From positions 1 through 33,136 of IMG/VR virus record IMGVR_UViG_3300018080_000411: a DNA stretch of 33,136 bases; one strand, written 5' to 3'. Made by a program: the position numbers and the translations under genes. The notes under the pieces are model-generated. The model had not been told where the DNA came from. It saw only the letters and a list, made by a program, of their open reading frames with translations, and did not search any database. Below are positions 88-31,231 of the stretch, in pieces. The DNA is from a virus. Position 1 is the stretch's first letter, and each line of letters begins with the position of its first letter.

Positions 88-147
88 TTATTTCTCAGTC
101 CTCTTATTAGATAAACGTATTACGTATATATCGGCGTTATAGGACAT
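88..147 (-). CDS. 19-aa mini-ORF spanning cassette boundary (copy 1)
   Basis: This frame reads MSYNADIYVIRLSNKRTEK. Its ATG lies inside the last codons of the upstream 82-aa gene, i.e. in the first bases of cassette A, and the rest runs through the 28-bp repeat. A nearly identical peptide (MHHNADIYVIRLFNKEDK) is encoded at 29324-29380, with its ATG at the same distance from the repeat. The parallel suggests a translational-coupling leader that passes ribosomes from a cassette gene to the gene beyond the repeat. It could equally be a by-product of the duplicated DNA. Confidence 0.35.
   Translation of the reverse strand: MSYNADIYVIRLSNKRTEK
111..138 (+). repeat. 28-bp direct repeat, copy 1: candidate cassette landing site
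   Basis: These 28 bases are identical to 29344-29371. With one mismatch and one indel the similarity continues leftwards to about position 97. The copy contains ACGTATTACGT, a 5-bp inverted repeat around one central base, and ends in CGGCG|TT, exactly at the left boundary of cassette A. The same arrangement occurs at copy 2. By analogy with integrons, this position (single non-hairpin site, first cassette immediately after G|TT) is that of attI. That role is inference; no integrase gene is present. Confidence 0.75.
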
Positions 148-1487: not shown

Positions 1488-1894
1488 TTTGGCTCGTTTA
1501 AATAAATGTTAATTATACGCTGGGTCTCGGTCAGCCCGGTGGCAAATGTCGCGTAGTAGCCCTTATTCATTAACCGGAGCAGCATCTGGTTCTGCTCCTG
1601 AATGTGCTGGTCTTTTTTCAAAATCCCGCCTTTTGTGTAAGGGTTGGATCCGGCTTTTTTTATTTCTATGAGTAGTCCGTTGTACCCGCCACGCGGCTCA
1701 AGAATTATCAGATCCGGGATCCCTCTGTCGGACCTCATGTGTTTGATCTTGGCGCGGGTTCCCGGGTGCACCCGGACGCCGCTCATCTCAAAAAACCAAA
1801 TGATCTCAGGGTGCGCGAATTTCATCCAGTCGGCAATAAAAGTATAGATTCCATGTTCGGTTGCTGGTTCGTGTGGTATGTATTTTGCTTTCAT
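1484..1894 (-). CDS. VRR-NUC domain nuclease
   Basis: 136 aa, the usual size for a stand-alone phage VRR-NUC protein (PD-(D/E)XK superfamily, Holliday-junction or flap nuclease type). The metal-binding core is visible: GIPDLIIL with D61, and LLIEIKKAG with E77 and K79. It is followed by a Gln-containing helix (KDQHIQEQNQMLLRLMNKGY) and the strand ATFATG, as is standard in the family. It overlaps both neighbours by ATGA. Together with the Rad52-like annealing protein and the DnaA-type protein it forms a recombination-dependent replication set. Confidence 0.88.
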   Translation of the reverse strand: MKAKYIPHEPATEHGIYTFIADWMKFAHPEIIWFFEMSGVRVHPGTRAKIKHMRSDRGIPDLIILEPRGGYNGLLIEIKKAGSNPYTKGGILKKDQHIQEQNQMLLRLMNKGYYATFATGLTETQRIINIYLNEPK

Positions 1895-2292
1895 TGGCTC
1901 GCCTGGTTTTTAATTTCCTTTATATCTGAGGCGCGGGTGATCGCGTCCTCGATCTCGTTGATAATCGGTTTATAATACCTATCTGTTGAGAGTGTCTGCT
2001 CCACCCGGCGGCAGCTGTGCATCACTGTAGCGTGGTCTTTATTACCTACCATCGCTCCAATATCTGCAAAGCTGTATCTTGGGAGGTGCTTTCGAATCAT
2101 CGCGTGTGCAATCTGGCGGGCTGTTTTTATCCTGCTGCTCCGCGTCTTGATGTTTATTTCGTCGCGGGTGATTTCCTGGTGGTTGCAGATCACGTCGATT
2201 ATTTCCTCCGGGGTCAGGTGGCATTTATATTGCTGCCGAGGTCGGCGCTTCAGGCTTAGACCTGGTATTGCGTAAGCGCTTATTTTATCCAT
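1891..2292 (-). CDS. DnaA domain IV-like DNA-binding protein
   Basis: 133 aa. Residues 27-101 match the C-terminal DNA-binding domain of the bacterial initiator DnaA (Bac_DnaA_C). TPEEIIDVICNH opens it, followed by the basic helix SSRIKTARQIAHAMIRKHL, then the DnaA signature GNKDHATVMHSCRRV at 83-97. The AAA+ ATPase and other DnaA domains are missing, so it should bind DnaA boxes without ATP-driven melting. It may mark the phage origin, compete with host DnaA or act as a regulator. A perfect DnaA box exists at 30838-30846. It overlaps the next gene by ATGA and the previous one by 13 bases. Confidence 0.85.
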   Translation of the reverse strand: MDKISAYAIPGLSLKRRPRQQYKCHLTPEEIIDVICNHQEITRDEINIKTRSSRIKTARQIAHAMIRKHLPRYSFADIGAMVGNKDHATVMHSCRRVEQTLSTDRYYKPIINEIEDAITRASDIKEIKNQASQ

Positions 2293-2465
2293 CGGAGTAT
2301 TTTTTTAATTGGGCTTTCGCCGTAGATCTCGATTTGGTCTGTCGGGATTCCTCCGTTTATATGCTTGACAAAACTGGCAAGGTCGAGGCGGCGCGGGATC
2401 TGGTAGGTGACGGTGGCTTTCGTTCCTCGGATCCGGATATGTGTAAGTTTGGGCTTTGTGGTCAT
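2280..2465 (-). CDS. Hypothetical protein, 61 aa
   Basis: A small basic protein with a beta-rich pattern (THIRIRGTKATVTYQIP) and an amphipathic C-terminus. It has no recognisable family. It starts at ATG 2465 and its last codons overlap the start of the DnaA-domain gene, so it belongs to the same early operon. Confidence 0.6.
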   Translation of the reverse strand: MTTKPKLTHIRIRGTKATVTYQIPRRLDLASFVKHINGGIPTDQIEIYGESPIKKILRWIK

Positions 2466-2510
2466 CGGTCTAAATTTATGGGGAGGCGTGGGGTCCTCCC
2501 CTGGTTAAAT

Positions 2511-2975
2511 TTAACCCAGCGTGACTTTGATGCTGGTTGTCGATTTCTTGCTGGGTCGCTTCAAAAGGGCGCCGGTCTCCGGGTCTGCCATTCCGCCCTC
2601 CGGGAGGGTCTTGAGCATGGTTTGTCTGGTTTTGATCTTATCTGCCAAATCCGAGGCATCCATCAGCCATCCGTTCAGGGTTTCGTCATCACAGGCGCTG
2701 TAGTCGTACTTGGTGCCGGTCTCAGCGACCTCCACCTTCGCTCCGTGAAATTCGAAGCGTTTGGAGTCCTCCTTCTGGATTTCCTCGATGGTAAATTCGC
2801 GGACCTCCTTGTTGGCTCTCACTTGCTTGATCGCTTCCTCCATTGCTTTTAGCTTTATGGCGGCGACGGCTGGGTGTTCCTTCCCTTCAAGGATGGTGTT
2901 AATAATCGTGGCGGCGAGCGCCTGGGCGCCGGGCTTATTAACCGGCGTTGTTCGTAGAATCTCTGGTTGTTTCAT
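2511..2975 (-). CDS. Conserved phage protein of unknown function, 154 aa
   Basis: The protein contains the segment KVEVAETGTKYDYSACDD (about residues 79-96) followed by a helical region and a tail ending in KKSTTSIKVTLG. I recall this layout from Bacteroidota phage proteins encoded beside recombination genes, where function is unassigned. It has no obvious catalytic motif. Its ATG overlaps the stop of the upstream 63-aa gene (2972-2975), placing it in the recombination operon; a role as partner of the annealing protein is inference. Confidence 0.6.
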   Translation of the reverse strand: MKQPEILRTTPVNKPGAQALAATIINTILEGKEHPAVAAIKLKAMEEAIKQVRANKEVREFTIEEIQKEDSKRFEFHGAKVEVAETGTKYDYSACDDETLNGWLMDASDLADKIKTRQTMLKTLPEGGMADPETGALLKRPSKKSTTSIKVTLG

Positions 2976-3163
2976 CTTGTTTTTATTTTTAAAAATTCAA
3001 TGCTTGCTTGTATCTCTCCAATATGTCCGGCAATCTTTAAGATTGGTCCGGTGTCGGTTTCGTGGGTTGCCTGGCTTATTATATCCTTAAGGGCTTTATC
3101 GATCCCTTTCAGCGATCTATCGATCCGATTTGCTTCTAATCTCACTTTTGCTCCGTCGATCAT
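2972..3163 (-). CDS. Small helical protein, 63 aa
   Basis: Almost entirely helical and charged, with heptad-like spacing of hydrophobic residues (IDRSLKGIDKALKDIISQA and ILKIAGHIGEIQASIEFL). A short coiled coil or helical hairpin is likely. No family recognised. It is coupled to the upstream annealing-protein gene and the downstream 154-aa gene by ATGA-type overlaps at both ends. Confidence 0.65.
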   Translation of the reverse strand: MIDGAKVRLEANRIDRSLKGIDKALKDIISQATHETDTGPILKIAGHIGEIQASIEFLKIKTR

Positions 3164-3858
3164 GGCTGCGGGTTTTCTGTGGTTTCCTGCTGCAATTCTG
3201 CCACTTTCCGTTCAAAGGTGGATCCTGCCAGCTCCAAATATTCCCGTTGTTGCTTAGTCACGGTCATCTGGTTTTCTATCTGATCCAGCAACTTCAGCTC
3301 ACCTGTGGCGATTCTGTCGTAGGCTTCCTGGCATTGTTTGTCATTCAGCTTCGGTTTGCCGGTTGTATTTTTTACCGGCTCCGGTTTGGTCTTGCTGTAC
3401 TTGCTGTCGTCCAGTATTCCTCGGTAAACATCGGCCGCGACGCCGATTGCCTTGAGCGCCACGGAGAGGGCGTCAGTGGTTGCCATCTTTAAGGCTTCGT
3501 CGCTGGTATAAAGCCCGCCGCGCTCCTCCTCCACGAACATGGATCCACCTGTACCTGGGATCGGTTCGCTCCATTCGCCGTTCAGCTTGTATCGTAACTC
3601 TATGTTCACAAAGGCGGCGATCTGGCTCTTGGATCCCGGCTCCAGCCATTGGCGGATGACCTGGTATTTCCAGCCGAATCCGATGGGTCCGAAGGTCTCA
3701 TTCATTATGTCGATTCGCCATTGGGGATTGATGTCGCTCTTGCCTTTTAACCGACCTCCCGTGATTTTCTTCAAGGCATCCTCCGGCGGTTTCCGGATCT
3801 TTTTGATTCGTTCGTCAGCGTTGTAATTTTCGATGTTGATTTTGCTCTTGTCTGTCAT
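3160..3858 (-). CDS. Rad52/Sak-like single-strand annealing protein
   Basis: 232 aa. Residues about 25-150 look like a phage recombinase of the Rad52/Sak type: a basic start with LKGKSDINPQWRIDIMNETF, strands around FVNIELRYKLNGEW, GTGGSMFVEE, and the diagnostic TSDEALKMATTDALSVALKAIGVAADVYRG segment. The Gln/Glu-rich C-terminal region is likely flexible. Such proteins coat and anneal ssDNA during recombination-driven phage replication. Its neighbours (VRR-NUC, SSB elsewhere in the genome) fit that role. ERF is an alternative family name; the DALSVA...G.GAD pattern favours the Rad52-like group. It precedes the 63-aa gene with an ATGA overlap. Confidence 0.75.
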   Translation of the reverse strand: MTDKSKINIENYNADERIKKIRKPPEDALKKITGGRLKGKSDINPQWRIDIMNETFGPIGFGWKYQVIRQWLEPGSKSQIAAFVNIELRYKLNGEWSEPIPGTGGSMFVEEERGGLYTSDEALKMATTDALSVALKAIGVAADVYRGILDDSKYSKTKPEPVKNTTGKPKLNDKQCQEAYDRIATGELKLLDQIENQMTVTKQQREYLELAGSTFERKVAELQQETTENPQP

Positions 3859-25592: not shown

Positions 25593-25664
25593 AGCGCAGA
25601 GGTCGAATCGAACGCCTCTTTCCGGCTGGAATGCCGGACGTGCAAGCCATTACACTTTCTGCGC
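25593..25664 (-). tRNA. tRNA-Gly(UCC)-like gene with 8-nt anticodon loop
   Basis: A full cloverleaf can be drawn: acceptor GCGCAGA with TCTGCGC (7 perfect pairs), D-arm GTGT(AATGGCTT)GCAC, anticodon stem TCCGG/CCGGA, T loop GTTCGATTC, and discriminator U73 as in bacterial tRNA-Gly. D-arm and loop match E. coli tRNA-Gly(UCC). Two oddities are visible. The anticodon loop has eight bases (CATTCCAG) instead of seven, and the T-stem lacks one base (two mismatched pairs). CCA is not encoded. The 5' end overlaps the last five codons of the Mom gene. It could be a working frameshift-type tRNA, a decaying tRNA or an attachment-site relic. Confidence 0.6.
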
Positions 25665-26318
25665 TTGTCTGTCTTTTATGCTTATTTTTTCGCCTTTATA
25701 CATTCCCGCTTTCATCTCATCAATTGCCGAATATGGTAAAATCGGCGTATTTAATTTACAGCTTTTATCGATCAAATAGATATATTTAAACTGCTTACCT
25801 TTTAGTGTTTTCCATGTTTTAAATTTTTTGGTTATTTTAAGATGATGAGCCTGTATGCAATGAACCTTTTCACCCGTCACCGGATTAATCCTAATCGCCG
25901 TATTTTCAACAATCCCCACTAATTTAAACCCGCTTGCTCTATATATTGTCCCATCTCCACACATTGTCCCATCTGCAAAACTTATTATCCATTTAATATG
26001 CGGGGCTTTTGCTTTAATCAATCTTATACTGATTGAAATACAGCGACTTTCACTATTTTTAGGAAGGTAATCGTCGAAAGCCATCCTATTTAATTCCAAA
26101 AATTCATTCCAGCCAGTATTTGACACTAAATTGATTGTACCTTTTTTATTTATACTTGGCCCAAAACTCATGACGCCATGTAATCTATTGTCGAGAAAAG
26201 CTCCAAAATGTAAATTGCTATTAGGGACAACCTTACCACTATAATGATATTTTTTAACAAACTCGTTCGCAGGTTTCGATTTTATGACCCTTATTTTTAT
26301 TTCTTTTGCCCGTCCCAT
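25650..26318 (-). CDS. mom: Mom-family DNA modification protein
   Basis: 222 aa, GNAT-like fold. Mom of phage Mu modifies adenine bases and shields DNA from restriction. Family segments are visible in order: VKKYHYSGKVV (23-31), HGVMSFG (47-53), ELNRMAFDD (75-83), PKNSESRCISISIRL (86-100), IISFADG (111-117) and GTIYRASGF (123-131). The C-terminal 70 residues are basic and species-specific. It overlaps the ParB-domain gene by 22 bases and its last five codons form the 5' end of the tRNA-like gene. AT-rich relative to the head genes, suggesting transfer. Confidence 0.82.
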   Translation of the reverse strand: MGRAKEIKIRVIKSKPANEFVKKYHYSGKVVPNSNLHFGAFLDNRLHGVMSFGPSINKKGTINLVSNTGWNEFLELNRMAFDDYLPKNSESRCISISIRLIKAKAPHIKWIISFADGTMCGDGTIYRASGFKLVGIVENTAIRINPVTGEKVHCIQAHHLKITKKFKTWKTLKGKQFKYIYLIDKSCKLNTPILPYSAIDEMKAGMYKGEKISIKDRQAQKV

Positions 26319-26899
26319 TGTGAAATAATCAAATATAGTGCATTTCCGTTAGAATTCTCGTTTCCAAATGTTTCTATATTTTTAAACTCCTCTTTTTGTT
26401 TTACTTTAGTAATAGCGCCCTTTACTTGCTCCGCTTGCTCATCAGCCATTGTAAATGTCATCTGTTGAAATGGTTCTCTATCTCCATCTGGTAAACTAAA
26501 ACTATCATCCGTGTCTTCATCGCTCATATCAAAACCGGGCAGATATACACCCCAGTCCTCCAGATGTCCAAGGTCCCACTCGTTGGCTATCGTTTCCCAG
26601 TCCCAACGTCCATTGCTCACATTATCGCGGATGGTAATTTCTTTTTCCCTTTCCTCGGTTAAATTTGGAATTAAAAAGGTTGGCACCTCTTTCATCCGCA
26701 GGGCGACGGCTGCTTTGTAGCGCTGGTTGCCGGCGAGGATTATTAATTCGCCGGTTCTGTCGGAAAGGATCAGGGGTCGGGCTTCAAAGTAGTCCGCGTT
26801 GTCCTTGATGGATTTCTTCAGGCGACTGAAATCCTCCGCTGTTATGGTTCGCGGGTTGCGTTCGAGCAGCTTAAGGTCTTTTATTTTTCTGTACTTCAT
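26297..26899 (-). CDS. ParB N-terminal domain protein
   Basis: 200 aa. Residues 1-85 form a ParB/sulfiredoxin-like domain: NPR at 15-17, RPLIL at 41-45 and GNQR at 57-60 within LIILAGNQRYKAAVALRMKEVP. The second half (EKEITIRDNVSNGRWDWETIANEWD, then an acidic linker and a helix) is what many phage ParB-like proteins encoded next to DNA methylases carry. Some members are CTP/ATP-dependent DNA-binding proteins, others nucleases. Pairing with Mom suggests it helps target or regulate DNA modification. Confidence 0.82.
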   Translation of the reverse strand: MKYRKIKDLKLLERNPRTITAEDFSRLKKSIKDNADYFEARPLILSDRTGELIILAGNQRYKAAVALRMKEVPTFLIPNLTEEREKEITIRDNVSNGRWDWETIANEWDLGHLEDWGVYLPGFDMSDEDTDDSFSLPDGDREPFQQMTFTMADEQAEQVKGAITKVKQKEEFKNIETFGNENSNGNALYLIISQWDGQKK

Positions 26900-28458: not shown

Positions 28459-28569
28459 TTAATATTTAGAATATCCACACTTAGTGCAGATATAGCCTCC
28501 TGCACGATAACTATATCTCATCGTTGTCCTGCCCTTTTTTGTGGTGTGCGTACACTTATCTTTACTCAT
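28459..28569 (-). CDS. 36-aa CxH...CxxC putative zinc-binding mini-protein
   Basis: Thirty-six residues: C6 and H8 near the start and C30/C33 in GYICTKCGY near the end, a spacing suited to a single zinc. Basic in between (TTKKGRTTMRYSYR). The ATG overlaps the previous stop (ATGA) and has the same GGAGGAACAGC ribosome-binding junction as the other small genes of the train at 28566-29327, which strongly supports translation. Last gene before the AT-rich gap upstream of SSB. Confidence 0.6.
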   Translation of the reverse strand: MSKDKCTHTTKKGRTTMRYSYRAGGYICTKCGYSKY

Positions 28570-28778
28570 TGCTGTTCCTCCGTATTAGATTCCCATTCTT
28601 CTTCCTGTGCCATTGATAATATCGGACTTTGATCAACCATTGCTCTCATTATCCGATTACACTCAATGAGCATTTCGATTAAATCTGCTTTTTTGAACTT
28701 CATATACATCGACACTTTTTCGTCGTGTGACATTTCAGCCTCCTTTAAATAAAGCTGAACCCTCTTTTCTTCACTCAT
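28566..28778 (-). CDS. Small-gene train member, 70 aa, MSEEKR...
   Basis: Largely helical and charged (LYLKEAEMSHDEKVSMYMKFKKADLIEMLIECNRIMRAM), likely a short helical bundle. It starts with the shared MSEEK leader and ends in ...EEQQ, coded by the ribosome-binding junction of the next gene. ATGA overlaps at both ends. Function unknown. Confidence 0.65.
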   Translation of the reverse strand: MSEEKRVQLYLKEAEMSHDEKVSMYMKFKKADLIEMLIECNRIMRAMVDQSPILSMAQEEEWESNTEEQQ

Positions 28779-28945
28779 TTCTGTTCCTCCTGATTAGATT
28801 GAATAAATCGTTGATATAATTCGTCAATTTCAGTTGGCTCTGATTCCATGCCGATATGTATGCCATCATCAGCTTGGTTTAATTGAGGATGGTGTATTAA
28901 CCACTCCCCAAATCTTATTGCGTGTTGCTTCTTTTCTTCACTCAT
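28775..28945 (-). CDS. Small-gene train member, 56 aa, MSEEKK...
   Basis: The protein starts MSEEKKQHAIRFGEWLIHHP and ends SNQEEQK. The middle is acidic (GMESEPTEIDELYQRF). Start and end are built from the same junction sequences as its neighbours, with ATGA overlap on both sides. I do not recognise a family, although FGEWLIHHP is the kind of helix seen in small phage early proteins. Confidence 0.65.
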   Translation of the reverse strand: MSEEKKQHAIRFGEWLIHHPQLNQADDGIHIGMESEPTEIDELYQRFIQSNQEEQK

Positions 28946-29112
28946 TTTGTTTCCTCCTTCTTGTTAGATTGGATAACTGAATAATTATCTGGATTTATTA
29001 CTTCCCAAGCAATATCGTCTTCTTTCTCAAAAGTAAAAATCTCTCCCGTTGGCAGGAACTTATATTTATCGCCAATTTGAATATCTCTAATGTGCTTTTT
29101 ATTTTCACTCAT
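28942..29112 (-). CDS. Small-gene train member, 56 aa, MSENKK...
   Basis: It reads MSENKKHIRDIQIGDKYKFL followed by PTGEIFTFEKEDD and a C-terminus SVIQSNKKEETK. The strand-turn pattern IGDKYKFLPTGEIFTF suggests a small SH3-like barrel. It overlaps its neighbours by ATGA and shares the conserved start junction GGAGGAACAGCAATGAGTGA. Confidence 0.65.
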   Translation of the reverse strand: MSENKKHIRDIQIGDKYKFLPTGEIFTFEKEDDIAWEVINPDNYSVIQSNKKEETK

Positions 29113-29327
29113 TGCTGTTCCTCCGTTAAATTAATGTAATTCAAACATTCTTTTCTTGTTCTAAAAACTTCATCAGCGTGTCTCGGTTTATTCCATTCCC
29201 CAATATATTGACTAAACCAAACCCTCTTAGAAACATTACTAAAGCCTCTTAATTTCCTTCTTATAGGCTTTCCGTTTATTGAAACAATCCAATATCTTTT
29301 ACCGATTACAAGTTCTTCTCTTTTCAT
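29109..29327 (-). CDS. Basic small-gene train member, 72 aa
   Basis: A basic protein with a beta-rich first half (ELVIGKRYWIVSINGKPIRRKLRGFS, KRVWFSQYIGEW) and a helical end (ADEVFRTRKECLNYINLTEEQQ). The start fits a small SH3-like fold. It is the first gene after copy 2 of the 28-bp repeat, with an AAGGAGGAC site upstream, and its ATG overlaps the stop of the 18-aa mini-ORF. No family recognised. Confidence 0.65.
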   Translation of the reverse strand: MKREELVIGKRYWIVSINGKPIRRKLRGFSNVSKRVWFSQYIGEWNKPRHADEVFRTRKECLNYINLTEEQQ

Positions 29328-29380
29328 TTGTCCTCCTTATTAAATAAACGTATTACGTATATATCGGCGTTGTGGTGCAT
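29324..29380 (-). CDS. 18-aa mini-ORF spanning cassette boundary (copy 2)
   Basis: MHHNADIYVIRLFNKEDK. The ATG overlaps the stop of the cassette B gene (TAATG), the frame runs through the 28-bp repeat, and the stop overlaps the ATG of the 72-aa gene. This gives an unbroken chain of overlaps between a cassette gene and the fixed downstream gene. The related mini-ORF at 88-147 keeps NADIYVIRL and the same ATG position, although the bases before AAC come from a different cassette. Confidence 0.4.
   Translation of the reverse strand: MHHNADIYVIRLFNKEDK
29344..29371 (+). repeat. 28-bp direct repeat, copy 2: candidate cassette landing site
   Basis: Identical over 28 bases to 111-138 and, like that copy, ends in CGGCG|TT exactly at the boundary of a cassette (B). 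The two copies are about 29.2 kb apart in the window. The flank on the other side (TCCTCCTTATTAA here) is also similar. Perfect conservation beside two unrelated cassettes points to function of the DNA itself or a recent duplication. Confidence 0.75.
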
Positions 29381-29703
29381 TAGTCAAAATCCTTACACCA
29401 ACTGTCCAATTGGAAACTCATCGCATCCCCTACCAAAGTTTTGTTTGGGAGCTGTCTCCATTTCCAGTAGCCTTTTACATATTGCTCTGTTGCTATGAAT
29501 TTCTTTTGTGGTTTAAATAAACCAAACAAAACAGAGTCTTCGCAAGTCATAGTTATGTGTCCTTTCTCGTTAGTTTCTTTTTTAATTGCTTTCATGTTTT
29601 TGATAATTAACGCACCACAACAATAAATAAAATGAATAGCGCATGGGTGCTGTCTACTTCTATTCAAGTGTAGCTATTGCGCTACTGCATTTTATTAGAG
29701 CCG
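29370..29703 (+). mobile_element. Integron-type gene cassette B (334 bp)
   Basis: The unit runs from G29369|T29370 to G29703|T29704. GTTGTGGTGC (29369-29378) and the inverse core GCACCACAAC (29612-29621) are exact reverse complements over 10 bp. It holds one gene of 71 codons, which fills it from 10 bp inside the left boundary to 16 bp before the attC-like hairpin. This is the compact, promoterless layout of integron cassettes, with the gene reversed. Confidence 0.7.
29380..29595 (-). CDS. Cassette B hypothetical protein, 71 aa
   Basis: It starts at ATG 29595 (MKAIKKETNEKGHITMTCED); an extended frame with a TTG start would run through the attC-like hairpin and is rejected. Mixed composition with a conserved-looking SVLFGLFKPQKKFIATEQYVKGYWKWRQLPN segment. 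No family recognised. There is no promoter or clear Shine-Dalgarno inside the cassette, so it depends on phage read-through. Confidence 0.6.
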   Translation of the reverse strand: MKAIKKETNEKGHITMTCEDSVLFGLFKPQKKFIATEQYVKGYWKWRQLPNKTLVGDAMSFQLDSWCKDFD

Positions 29704-29709
29704 TTATGT
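29612..29709 (+). repeat. attC-like recombination site B
   Basis: It opens with GCACCACAACAAT and ends in AGCCG|TTATGT. Bases 29622-29643 (ending AATAGCGCA) pair with 29678-29700 over most of their length, with a few unpaired bases. The apex contains GTAGC(TATTGC)GCTAC, a 5-bp hairpin. Stem and apex closely resemble site A. The AACAA start and CG|TT end fix the orientation as reading left to right. Confidence 0.7.
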
Positions 29710-30748
29710 GCAATAAAATAAAAAAATCCCACCGCACATTGTCTGCTATCGCAGCCATTAGGTGAAGTAACTGCTACATAAAAAACCTTTTCTTGGTTCA
29801 TAATTTTTAAAATCAGTGCTTCGATATAATTGTTTTCTGTTACCCCATCGGGCGAAATCCTTTTGCCATTGAGGTATATTATTTTTAGTTCTAAAATCTC
29901 TGTATGGTTGTGGATTTATCGAAACGCCATATTTCCGCATTTCATTAGCCCTAAGATATGCACTTTCAATTCTGCCATTTAGTAAAAGGTAATTGTCAAA
30001 TCTCCATTTTCCTATTCCAGCAGAAACGAGTAAATCCATAGCTTTAATTACTAATAGAATCATACTATCAGAATCGCATGCAAAGCGAACCGAGCGTATC
30101 CATTTAATTTTACTAAGTAATTCAGCAATTTCAGGTGTAATCAACCTTGCATCAAGTCCCTGGTTGAAATCTACTTTTATTCCAAGTTTTACAATTTTTT
30201 CAATTTGCTGAACACCGTAATCAGAAGCAAGTATATTGTTATCCATAATTATTGCTTTCTTTCTTCCTTGCAATATTTCTTCAATATCCCTGTATGGCTT
30301 TACTTTCCCCTCTTTTTTTGACACTACACACCATTTACAATTATAATTACAGCCTCTTGTTAAAAATCCGTAGGCTTTATCTGTTATGCCGTAAATTGAA
30401 TAATCAGGCAGCATATTATCAATTTCATCAGGAAGTTTGGTTGTCAAATCATAACCTGTACCACCTTTGATAATTTCGCCTAATTGTGCTAATGATGGGG
30501 TGTAATCAGGTGTATAGGTAAATACTTTGCTGATATAAGTAATGTCATAGTTACCTATTGCAACAAATTCAACAGTATCTCCGATTGCCTTGTGATAAGA
30601 TGAAATTTTCATCAAAGCCAAGTTTGGAAAACTATTATTATCTACATCTATTAAACCTATTTTTGCCATCCCTATTTTTTATTTTACAGACACATAACAG
30701 CACCTATATGCAACTCCGCTACGCTCCGCAGCACATAGCTGCATCCCG
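29704..30748 (+). mobile_element. Integron-type gene cassette C (1045 bp) with radical SAM gene
   Basis: The unit runs from G29703|T29704 to G30748|T30749. GTTATGTG (29703-29710) is the exact reverse complement of CACATAAC (30691-30698). It holds one gene, reversed relative to attC-like site C. The right boundary falls exactly on the TAA stop of the phage gene at 30749-31231 (TTA at 30749-30751), so the cassette is inserted flush against a core gene. Confidence 0.7.
29758..30669 (-). CDS. Radical SAM enzyme with N-terminal cobalamin-binding-like domain
   Basis: 303 aa. The first 90 residues (KIGLIDVDNNSFPNLALMKISSYHKAIGDTVEFV) look like the Rossmann start seen in B12-binding radical SAM proteins, although the DxHxxG motif is not present. 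The 4Fe-4S cluster motif CNYNCKWC gives C107, C111 and C114 (CX3CX2C). IIMDNNILA and VDFNQGLDARLI fit strands of the SAM barrel. The C-terminus ends in a Cys (KGFLCSSYFT). Substrate unknown: base modification of DNA or RNA, or a methylthio-type reaction, are possible. AT-rich and carried in cassette C. Confidence 0.8.
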   Translation of the reverse strand: MAKIGLIDVDNNSFPNLALMKISSYHKAIGDTVEFVAIGNYDITYISKVFTYTPDYTPSLAQLGEIIKGGTGYDLTTKLPDEIDNMLPDYSIYGITDKAYGFLTRGCNYNCKWCVVSKKEGKVKPYRDIEEILQGRKKAIIMDNNILASDYGVQQIEKIVKLGIKVDFNQGLDARLITPEIAELLSKIKWIRSVRFACDSDSMILLVIKAMDLLVSAGIGKWRFDNYLLLNGRIESAYLRANEMRKYGVSINPQPYRDFRTKNNIPQWQKDFARWGNRKQLYRSTDFKNYEPRKGFLCSSYFT

Positions 30749-30754
30749 TTATAA
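30691..30754 (+). repeat. attC-like recombination site C (59-base-element size)
   Basis: About 60 bp: inverse core CACATAAC, then GCACCTATATGC (30700-30711), which pairs at 10 of 12 positions with GCACATAGCTGC (30731-30742), an apical part rich in CCGC blocks, and the final CCCG|TTATAA. Size and architecture match a classic short 59-base element. The sequence differs from sites A and B, which suggests another integron as source. Confidence 0.7.
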
Positions 30755-31231
30755 TTCAATTCCATATTGGTCCGCCTCGCTCAGCCGGATCCAGCCGTTG
30801 CGACTGTACTTGGGCTGCCGGAGCCGGGTCTTTTTGATGTGGATAAATTCCCCAAACTCTCCGCCTCGCTGGACGTGGTCGATTACCTCCATGTAGCTGT
30901 ATAGCTTCAGTTGCTGGTCCCAATCGATAACGTCCGCGACGGTCGGGGTCGGGTAGCGGCAGCTGTCGATCGTGTTGTCGATCGCGTCCTTCAGTCGCTG
31001 GTCCGTAAATCCATTCTCCTTCAGCCGGTCAATCAGTATATCATAAAATGTAAGCGGTAATCCTGGAAATGCCTTTTTTAAATCCGCCATACCTCGGACC
31101 AAGGTTTCTGAGCATGCCGGCGGTCCTTGGTAAATTGAAAGCGCTTTATTTCGCGCCGACCTTGTCAGCGATAAGCCTGGCGATGTCGGCCGGATCTGCT
31201 CCAGCCTGACTGGTTTTCCGTTTATTTCCAT
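30749..31231 (-). CDS. Putative replicative helicase loader-like protein
   Basis: 160 aa. The central part (MADLKKAFPGLPLTFYDILIDRLKENGFTDQRLKDAIDNTIDSCRYPTPTVADVIDWD) is a helical segment like that found in phage helicase-loader or primosome accessory proteins, where a small helical domain precedes a basic tail. It overlaps the upstream DUF4373 gene by 86 bases. An internal ATG at residue 48 would avoid the overlap and is an alternative start. Its stop codon coincides with the right end of cassette C. Confidence 0.5.
   Translation of the reverse strand: MEINGKPVRLEQIRPTSPGLSLTRSARNKALSIYQGPPACSETLVRGMADLKKAFPGLPLTFYDILIDRLKENGFTDQRLKDAIDNTIDSCRYPTPTVADVIDWDQQLKLYSYMEVIDHVQRGGEFGEFIHIKKTRLRQPKYSRNGWIRLSEADQYGIEL
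30838..30846 (-). other. Perfect DnaA box (TTATCCACA)
   Basis: The plus strand reads TGTGGATAA, the complement of the DnaA consensus TTATCCACA. It lies inside a replication gene, the usual place for phage origins, and the phage encodes a DnaA domain IV protein. A single box may be chance (about one expected per few hundred kb for a perfect nonamer in random sequence, but selection by eye is biased). Confidence 0.35.

Follow-up and report, generated by a model that had tools for sequence, protein, structure and literature searches.

The window, by which we mean the whole stretch of DNA analyzed here, is one entire IMG/VR record of 33,136 bases; records in IMG/VR are metagenome assemblies. Its terminase, portal, head, and tape-measure genes all lie on the minus strand. 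The best match to a named phage was 40% identical, and no close relative of the phage was found in IMG/VR, either through its terminase or through its 160-aa or 71-aa protein. The stretches covering the two arrays described below have a lower G+C content (0.31-0.36) than the structural genes (about 0.49). Elsewhere in the window, two genes overlap (25650-26899, minus strand), one for a Mom-like DNA modification protein and the other a ParB-like nuclease/methyltransferase-associated gene; they possibly form a DNA modification pair directed against restriction. Four consecutive short genes (28556-29126) share a repeated start region, made up of the ribosome-binding site and the first codons, perhaps as a result of tandem duplication.

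Two cassette arrays were found in the window, and since both genes of array 1 are on the minus strand, the arrays were read on that strand, which is the gene direction of both. Array 1 (29344-30756) consists of an attI-like site, a cassette with a 71-aa ORF, the attC-like site B, a radical-SAM cassette, and the attC-like site A. The first-pass annotation had described two adjacent cassette units in this region, and both are present, as cassette 1 (29369-29621) and cassette 2 (29703-30698), with complementary ends. The ends of cassette 1, GTTGTGGTGC and GCACCACAAC, are complementary at 13 of 14 positions, and cassette 2, counted from G|TT to AAC, has 8-bp complementary ends (GTTATGTG/CACATAAC). 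Cassette 1 carries the 71-aa ORF (29380-29595, minus strand), and cassette 2 carries a gene of 303 aa (29758-30669, minus strand) that matches the radical-SAM family phrog_9298 (E 1.1e-99). In Bacteroides phages (L002-L011), members of this family lie outside recognizable cassettes, whereas the present one lies inside a cassette; attC-like flanks were absent at the radical-SAM relatives in Bacteroides phages and genomes.

Site A (30690-30756), which is 5' of the radical-SAM cassette, and site B (29613-29711) both fold better than shuffled sequences on the minus strand (DNA z of −2.35 and −2.30, respectively). These are two of the three hairpins reported at first; the third, at 29344-29370, does not form a hairpin (fold z of 0.24 to 0.41), and 29344-29368 is an attI-like site instead. 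The two flanks of site B match the far ends of the adjoining units over 10+8 bp. Among 166 sites from 553 kb of other loci, the best reached 8+8, and none of 300 shuffles of the window did. Because neither the other loci nor the shuffles ever equalled 10+8, a site with both flanks matching in this way is not a product of chance.

The attI-like site 1 is a 25-bp sequence, GCCGATATATACGTAATACGTTTAT, which occurs twice in the window. Its exact duplicate (111-135, minus strand) is attI-like site 2, and no such repeat is expected by chance. To the left of the cut the two copies have only three bases in common (AAC), and to the right 25. Written as AAC|GCCGATATATACGTAATACG, the sequence bears a resemblance, judged by eye, to the family consensus TATATxxGTAxTAC.

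Site 2 belongs to a second array (111-1059), which the first-pass annotation missed. To the left of the 25-bp copy is a cassette at 136-412 with an 82-aa ORF (137-385) and ends complementary at 12 of 14 positions (GTTATAGG/CCTATAAC), and beyond it are three further candidate sites, all on the minus strand. Site D (404-504) aligns with site B. Beyond it lie a probable short cassette (496-649), the weak candidate site E (641-773), a second probable cassette (765-931), and the weak candidate site F (923-1059), which is a long palindrome. The ends of each of the two probable cassettes are complementary at 11 of 14 positions, for which the chance is 0.0015 each for a random pair of GTT and AAC. Across the window, the complementarity of cassette ends is therefore clear in both units of array 1 and in the 82-aa unit, and imperfect in two more.

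Searching with site A brought up a metagenome-assembled genome (MAG) contig on which four sites share this layout and the cassette ends match. We built a search pattern from site A and these four sites, so that the relatives described below were found partly through site A. The pattern occurred in 118 IMG/VR contigs versus one of 395 sampled Bacteroidota genomes (the MAG contig itself), and the reversed pattern, used as a control, was absent from all 395. In 69 of 73 unique cassettes (longest ORF; ends matching over at least 8 bp), the ORF is oriented as in the window, and a plus-strand reading of site A, first taken from the MAG contig, was rejected, as these 69 have the opposite gene orientation. 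The pattern CACATAACGG..CCGTTATGTG was too specific and gave no matches, and searches of phage and plasmid records for near copies of site A returned none of note. The MAG contig (G293:C117, 3.7 kb) carries its four sites of phage type at 1780-3679, with the genes oppositely oriented; it may be either phage DNA that was binned with the genome or a bacterial counterpart.

A relative of the IntI profile was detected at seven of the 118 loci. Six of them encode four distinct proteins of 275-277 aa, 51-63% identical and located near the arrays, and the seventh gave a partial match. A further scan yielded 69 loci with relatives of this tyrosine recombinase of about 277 aa, whose neighbors include the portal, major head, terminase, and DnaB families. 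The Terminase_6N profile, one of several terminase families, was found in only 14 of 40 records with attC sites and 6 of 33 with the recombinase.

The phylogenetic tree groups 45 distinct phage recombinases in one clade (100/100), with IntI in a separate one (100/100). All 45 share the catalytic residues R, K, H, R, H, and Y without exception. The recombinases of the relatives scored 155-172 bits against TIGR02249, below its IntI cut-off of 265 bits. They lack the insertion of about 42 aa that is found in IntI, with 58 residues between two motifs versus 100 in IntI. Profiles and structures alike placed XerA nearest, followed by IntI. The predicted model had a mean pLDDT of 84 but superposed on its best match with a global rmsd of about 9 Å, so that only the domains compare well. 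In 198 Bacteroidota genomes, the best full-length match was 43% identical. The window itself contains no detectable IntI, as the first-pass annotation had stated, and a six-frame search of it at E 10 revealed no relative of the 277-aa clade; the contig is possibly incomplete.

We compared the sites with three covariance models. Model R1 was built from 28 classical attC sites of class 1 integrons, the Shewanella M16-3 prophage integron, and the phages TJE1 and P12002L, and its training sites are mostly proteobacterial. It recovers its own sites at 33-56 bits (P12002L at 17.5). The first-pass annotation had looked to an attC model for confirmation, which R1 did not provide: site B received 11.2 bits (E 0.9) and site A no match, and since R1 fails to recognize either, the locus was not classed as an integron. 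No Rfam family exceeded its gathering score in the window.

Model R2 was built from 25 sites of phage type, none of them from the window. It assigned 57.7 bits to site A on the minus strand (E 1.6e-16), which passes as a site of the type AACG..GCAGCTA..TAGGTGCTGTT. In the recombinase loci, R2 gave 42 matches, all on the strand of the recombinase and almost all upstream of it, and there were none in 618 kb of control loci, among them Bacteroidota IntI arrays, the Shewanella integron, TJE1, and P12002L. R3 is a broader model made from matches in the recombinase loci, again with the window outside the training set. It gave site A 47.2 bits, site B 17.7 bits (E 0.011), site D 16.2 bits (E 0.027), site E 13.1 bits (E 0.18), and site F 10.7 bits (E 0.81); the scores of D, E, and F are weak, and so, to a lesser degree, is that of B.

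The inner stem of the phage-type sites covaries at 0.336 versus 0.091 ± 0.018 after shuffling. Changes on both sides were counted in 35 cells, and sliding the partner abolished the covariation. These results bear on whether the hairpins are inverted repeats that arose by chance, or transcription terminators lying between small phage genes. Loosely matching single units do turn up about five times per 553 kb, but the flank controls of site B, the covarying stem, and the complementary ends all speak against this explanation, and the exact attI duplicate together with the independent match of site A refutes it; we regard it as extremely improbable.

In the relatives, the attI consists of AAC and, no more than a few bases after it, TATATGTA or one of its variants, shortly upstream of the recombinase, and the gene of about 277 aa comes directly after it. 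An attI of the AAC|TAYTATATGTA type precedes 56 of 62 recombinases at loci with enough upstream DNA. We then defined an end rule, by which the stretch preceding AAC, over 8 bp or more, is the reverse complement of a GTT sequence that lies upstream at the distance of one cassette. The rule holds in 30 of 35 testable loci versus 5.4% of the other AACs in the same loci.

Four loci from separate metagenomes (L160, L305, L306, and L307) are 99.8-100% identical over the 1000 bp to the right of AAC|. To the left they are unrelated (54-60%), and only the four to seven bases next to the cut agree. Other metagenomes again show three of the four states, which argues against the variants being chimeras. 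On sequence evidence, the differences are cassette exchanges at G|TT, an indirect sign of excision and insertion; the first-pass annotation had proposed looking for such exchange, and these near-identical related phages swap exactly such segments. Its reading of integron-type cassettes in a phage is likewise supported.

It could be argued that the 277-aa recombinase is an enzyme of lysogeny or dimer resolution, that the attI-like site is an attP or dif, and that the variation reflects recombination between phages, homologous or illegitimate. The phage proteins are similar to Xer recombinases, enzymes that resolve dimers at dif, and they match families of phage integrases; phage genomes are also mosaic. 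However, the variable segments end in the reverse complement of their own start at the 30 loci noted above, their other side carries attC hairpins, and one and the same base serves as the junction for several different cassettes. In addition, matches to a phage integrase family were seen for 4 of 115 neighboring proteins, which suggests that a further integrase is present in some of these phages. We therefore consider this account improbable, though somewhat less so than that of chance repeats.

The anatomy of the arrays, the conserved attI and attC sites with covarying stems, the exchange at the predicted base, and the association with one recombinase clade are established by these data. The two arrays in the window very probably belong to an integron-like cassette system borne by phages. 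We propose that a tyrosine recombinase would cut at G|TT (AAC| in gene direction) and join attI-like sites to hairpin attC-like sites. The unit, one gene plus one attC, would be excised as a circle and re-inserted, and the mobile form would be a circular cassette with the attC 5' of the gene. In gene direction the order is attC-gene-attC-gene-attI, with the genes pointing towards attI, and the arrays are presumably read through from phage promoters. The cutting would be done by an enzyme of the 277-aa clade, with the hairpin acting as a folded single strand; for this phage, the enzyme's gene may lie outside the contig, in the host, or in a co-infecting phage.

Alternatively, the cassettes could have been picked up from bacterial integrons as a CALIN (a cluster of attC sites without an integrase) and be moved only by a host IntI. 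This has a precedent in phages (PMC9892861), IntI proteins above the curated cut-off were found in 84 of 296 sampled Bacteroidota genomes, and the MAG contig carries four sites of phage type. Against it, R2 is silent in the Bacteroidota IntI arrays, the Shewanella integron, TJE1, and P12002L; the exact pattern occurs in 118 viral contigs but 1 of 395 genomes; and the attI and the arrays adjoin a recombinase clade other than IntI. We judge it unlikely, yet the least unlikely of the three alternatives. Many of the sampled Bacteroidota IntI genes (L084-L123) come with canonical attC arrays, whose attC type differs from the phage sites; a few Bacteroidota IntI are mentioned in PMC9024848, fewer than the number found here.

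The cargo of the relatives was also examined. Among 63 cassette genes, DNA methyltransferases (N6/N4 and others) were the commonest, and a PAPS reductase, one protein like the Thoeris anti-defence protein Tad2, and one Acb2/Tad1 domain were also present. The methyltransferases and the Tad2-like and Acb2/Tad1 proteins fit a role in counter-defence, and the uncharacterized cassette genes are candidates for new anti-defence functions. Beyond the first reading, the sites are of a phage-associated type, with an attI and a recombinase clade of their own. Phages of Bacteroidota-like hosts probably own an integron (distinct recombinase clade, attI, and attC) with which they collect counter-defence cassettes and swap them among phages, independently of bacterial integrons.

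Phages accordingly appear to trade genes, including ones that defeat bacterial defences, by an integron-like system of their own. Mosaicism of phages is well known; a dedicated platform on which single accessory genes are exchanged site-specifically would amount to a mechanism rather than an outcome alone. A recombinase outside IntI apparently acts on attC-like sites while lacking the IntI insertion, so that it can be tested whether this insertion is needed. R2 and the attI motif are direct search tools for such systems, and GATATATACGTAATACG could serve as a search string for relatives of the window phage.

Clusters of attC sites and whole integrons have been reported in phages, and IntI1 uses several of those sites (Qi et al. 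2023, PMC9892861), so that phage-borne cassettes as such are not the new reservoir that the first-pass annotation proposed. A literature search, with preprints and most subscription journals outside its reach, found no account of an integron-like recombinase owned by phages. The phage CALINs and integrons described previously also hold cassettes with attC sites and methyltransferase cargo, but any integrase described there in a phage is the bacterial IntI (PMC9892861), and TJE1 and P12002L have no R2 match. XerA and other Xer proteins (5hxy, 4a8e) are the best structural and sequence neighbors, with equal length and no insertion, whereas the phage recombinases sit at cassette arrays and form a separate, fully supported clade. 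With bacterial IntI integrons (class 1, Vibrio, and Bacteroidota chromosomal), the arrays share units of about one gene, the G|TT cut, matching cassette ends, imperfect hairpin sites, and an attI beside a tyrosine recombinase, the last in 56 of 62 relatives and the window being without a recombinase. They differ in having a recombinase below the IntI cut-off and without the insertion of about 42 aa, another attC type, and genes that share the strand of the recombinase, point to attI, and have the attC on their 5' side. By the features compared, the system would appear to work like an integron, yet it falls outside the IntI integrons.
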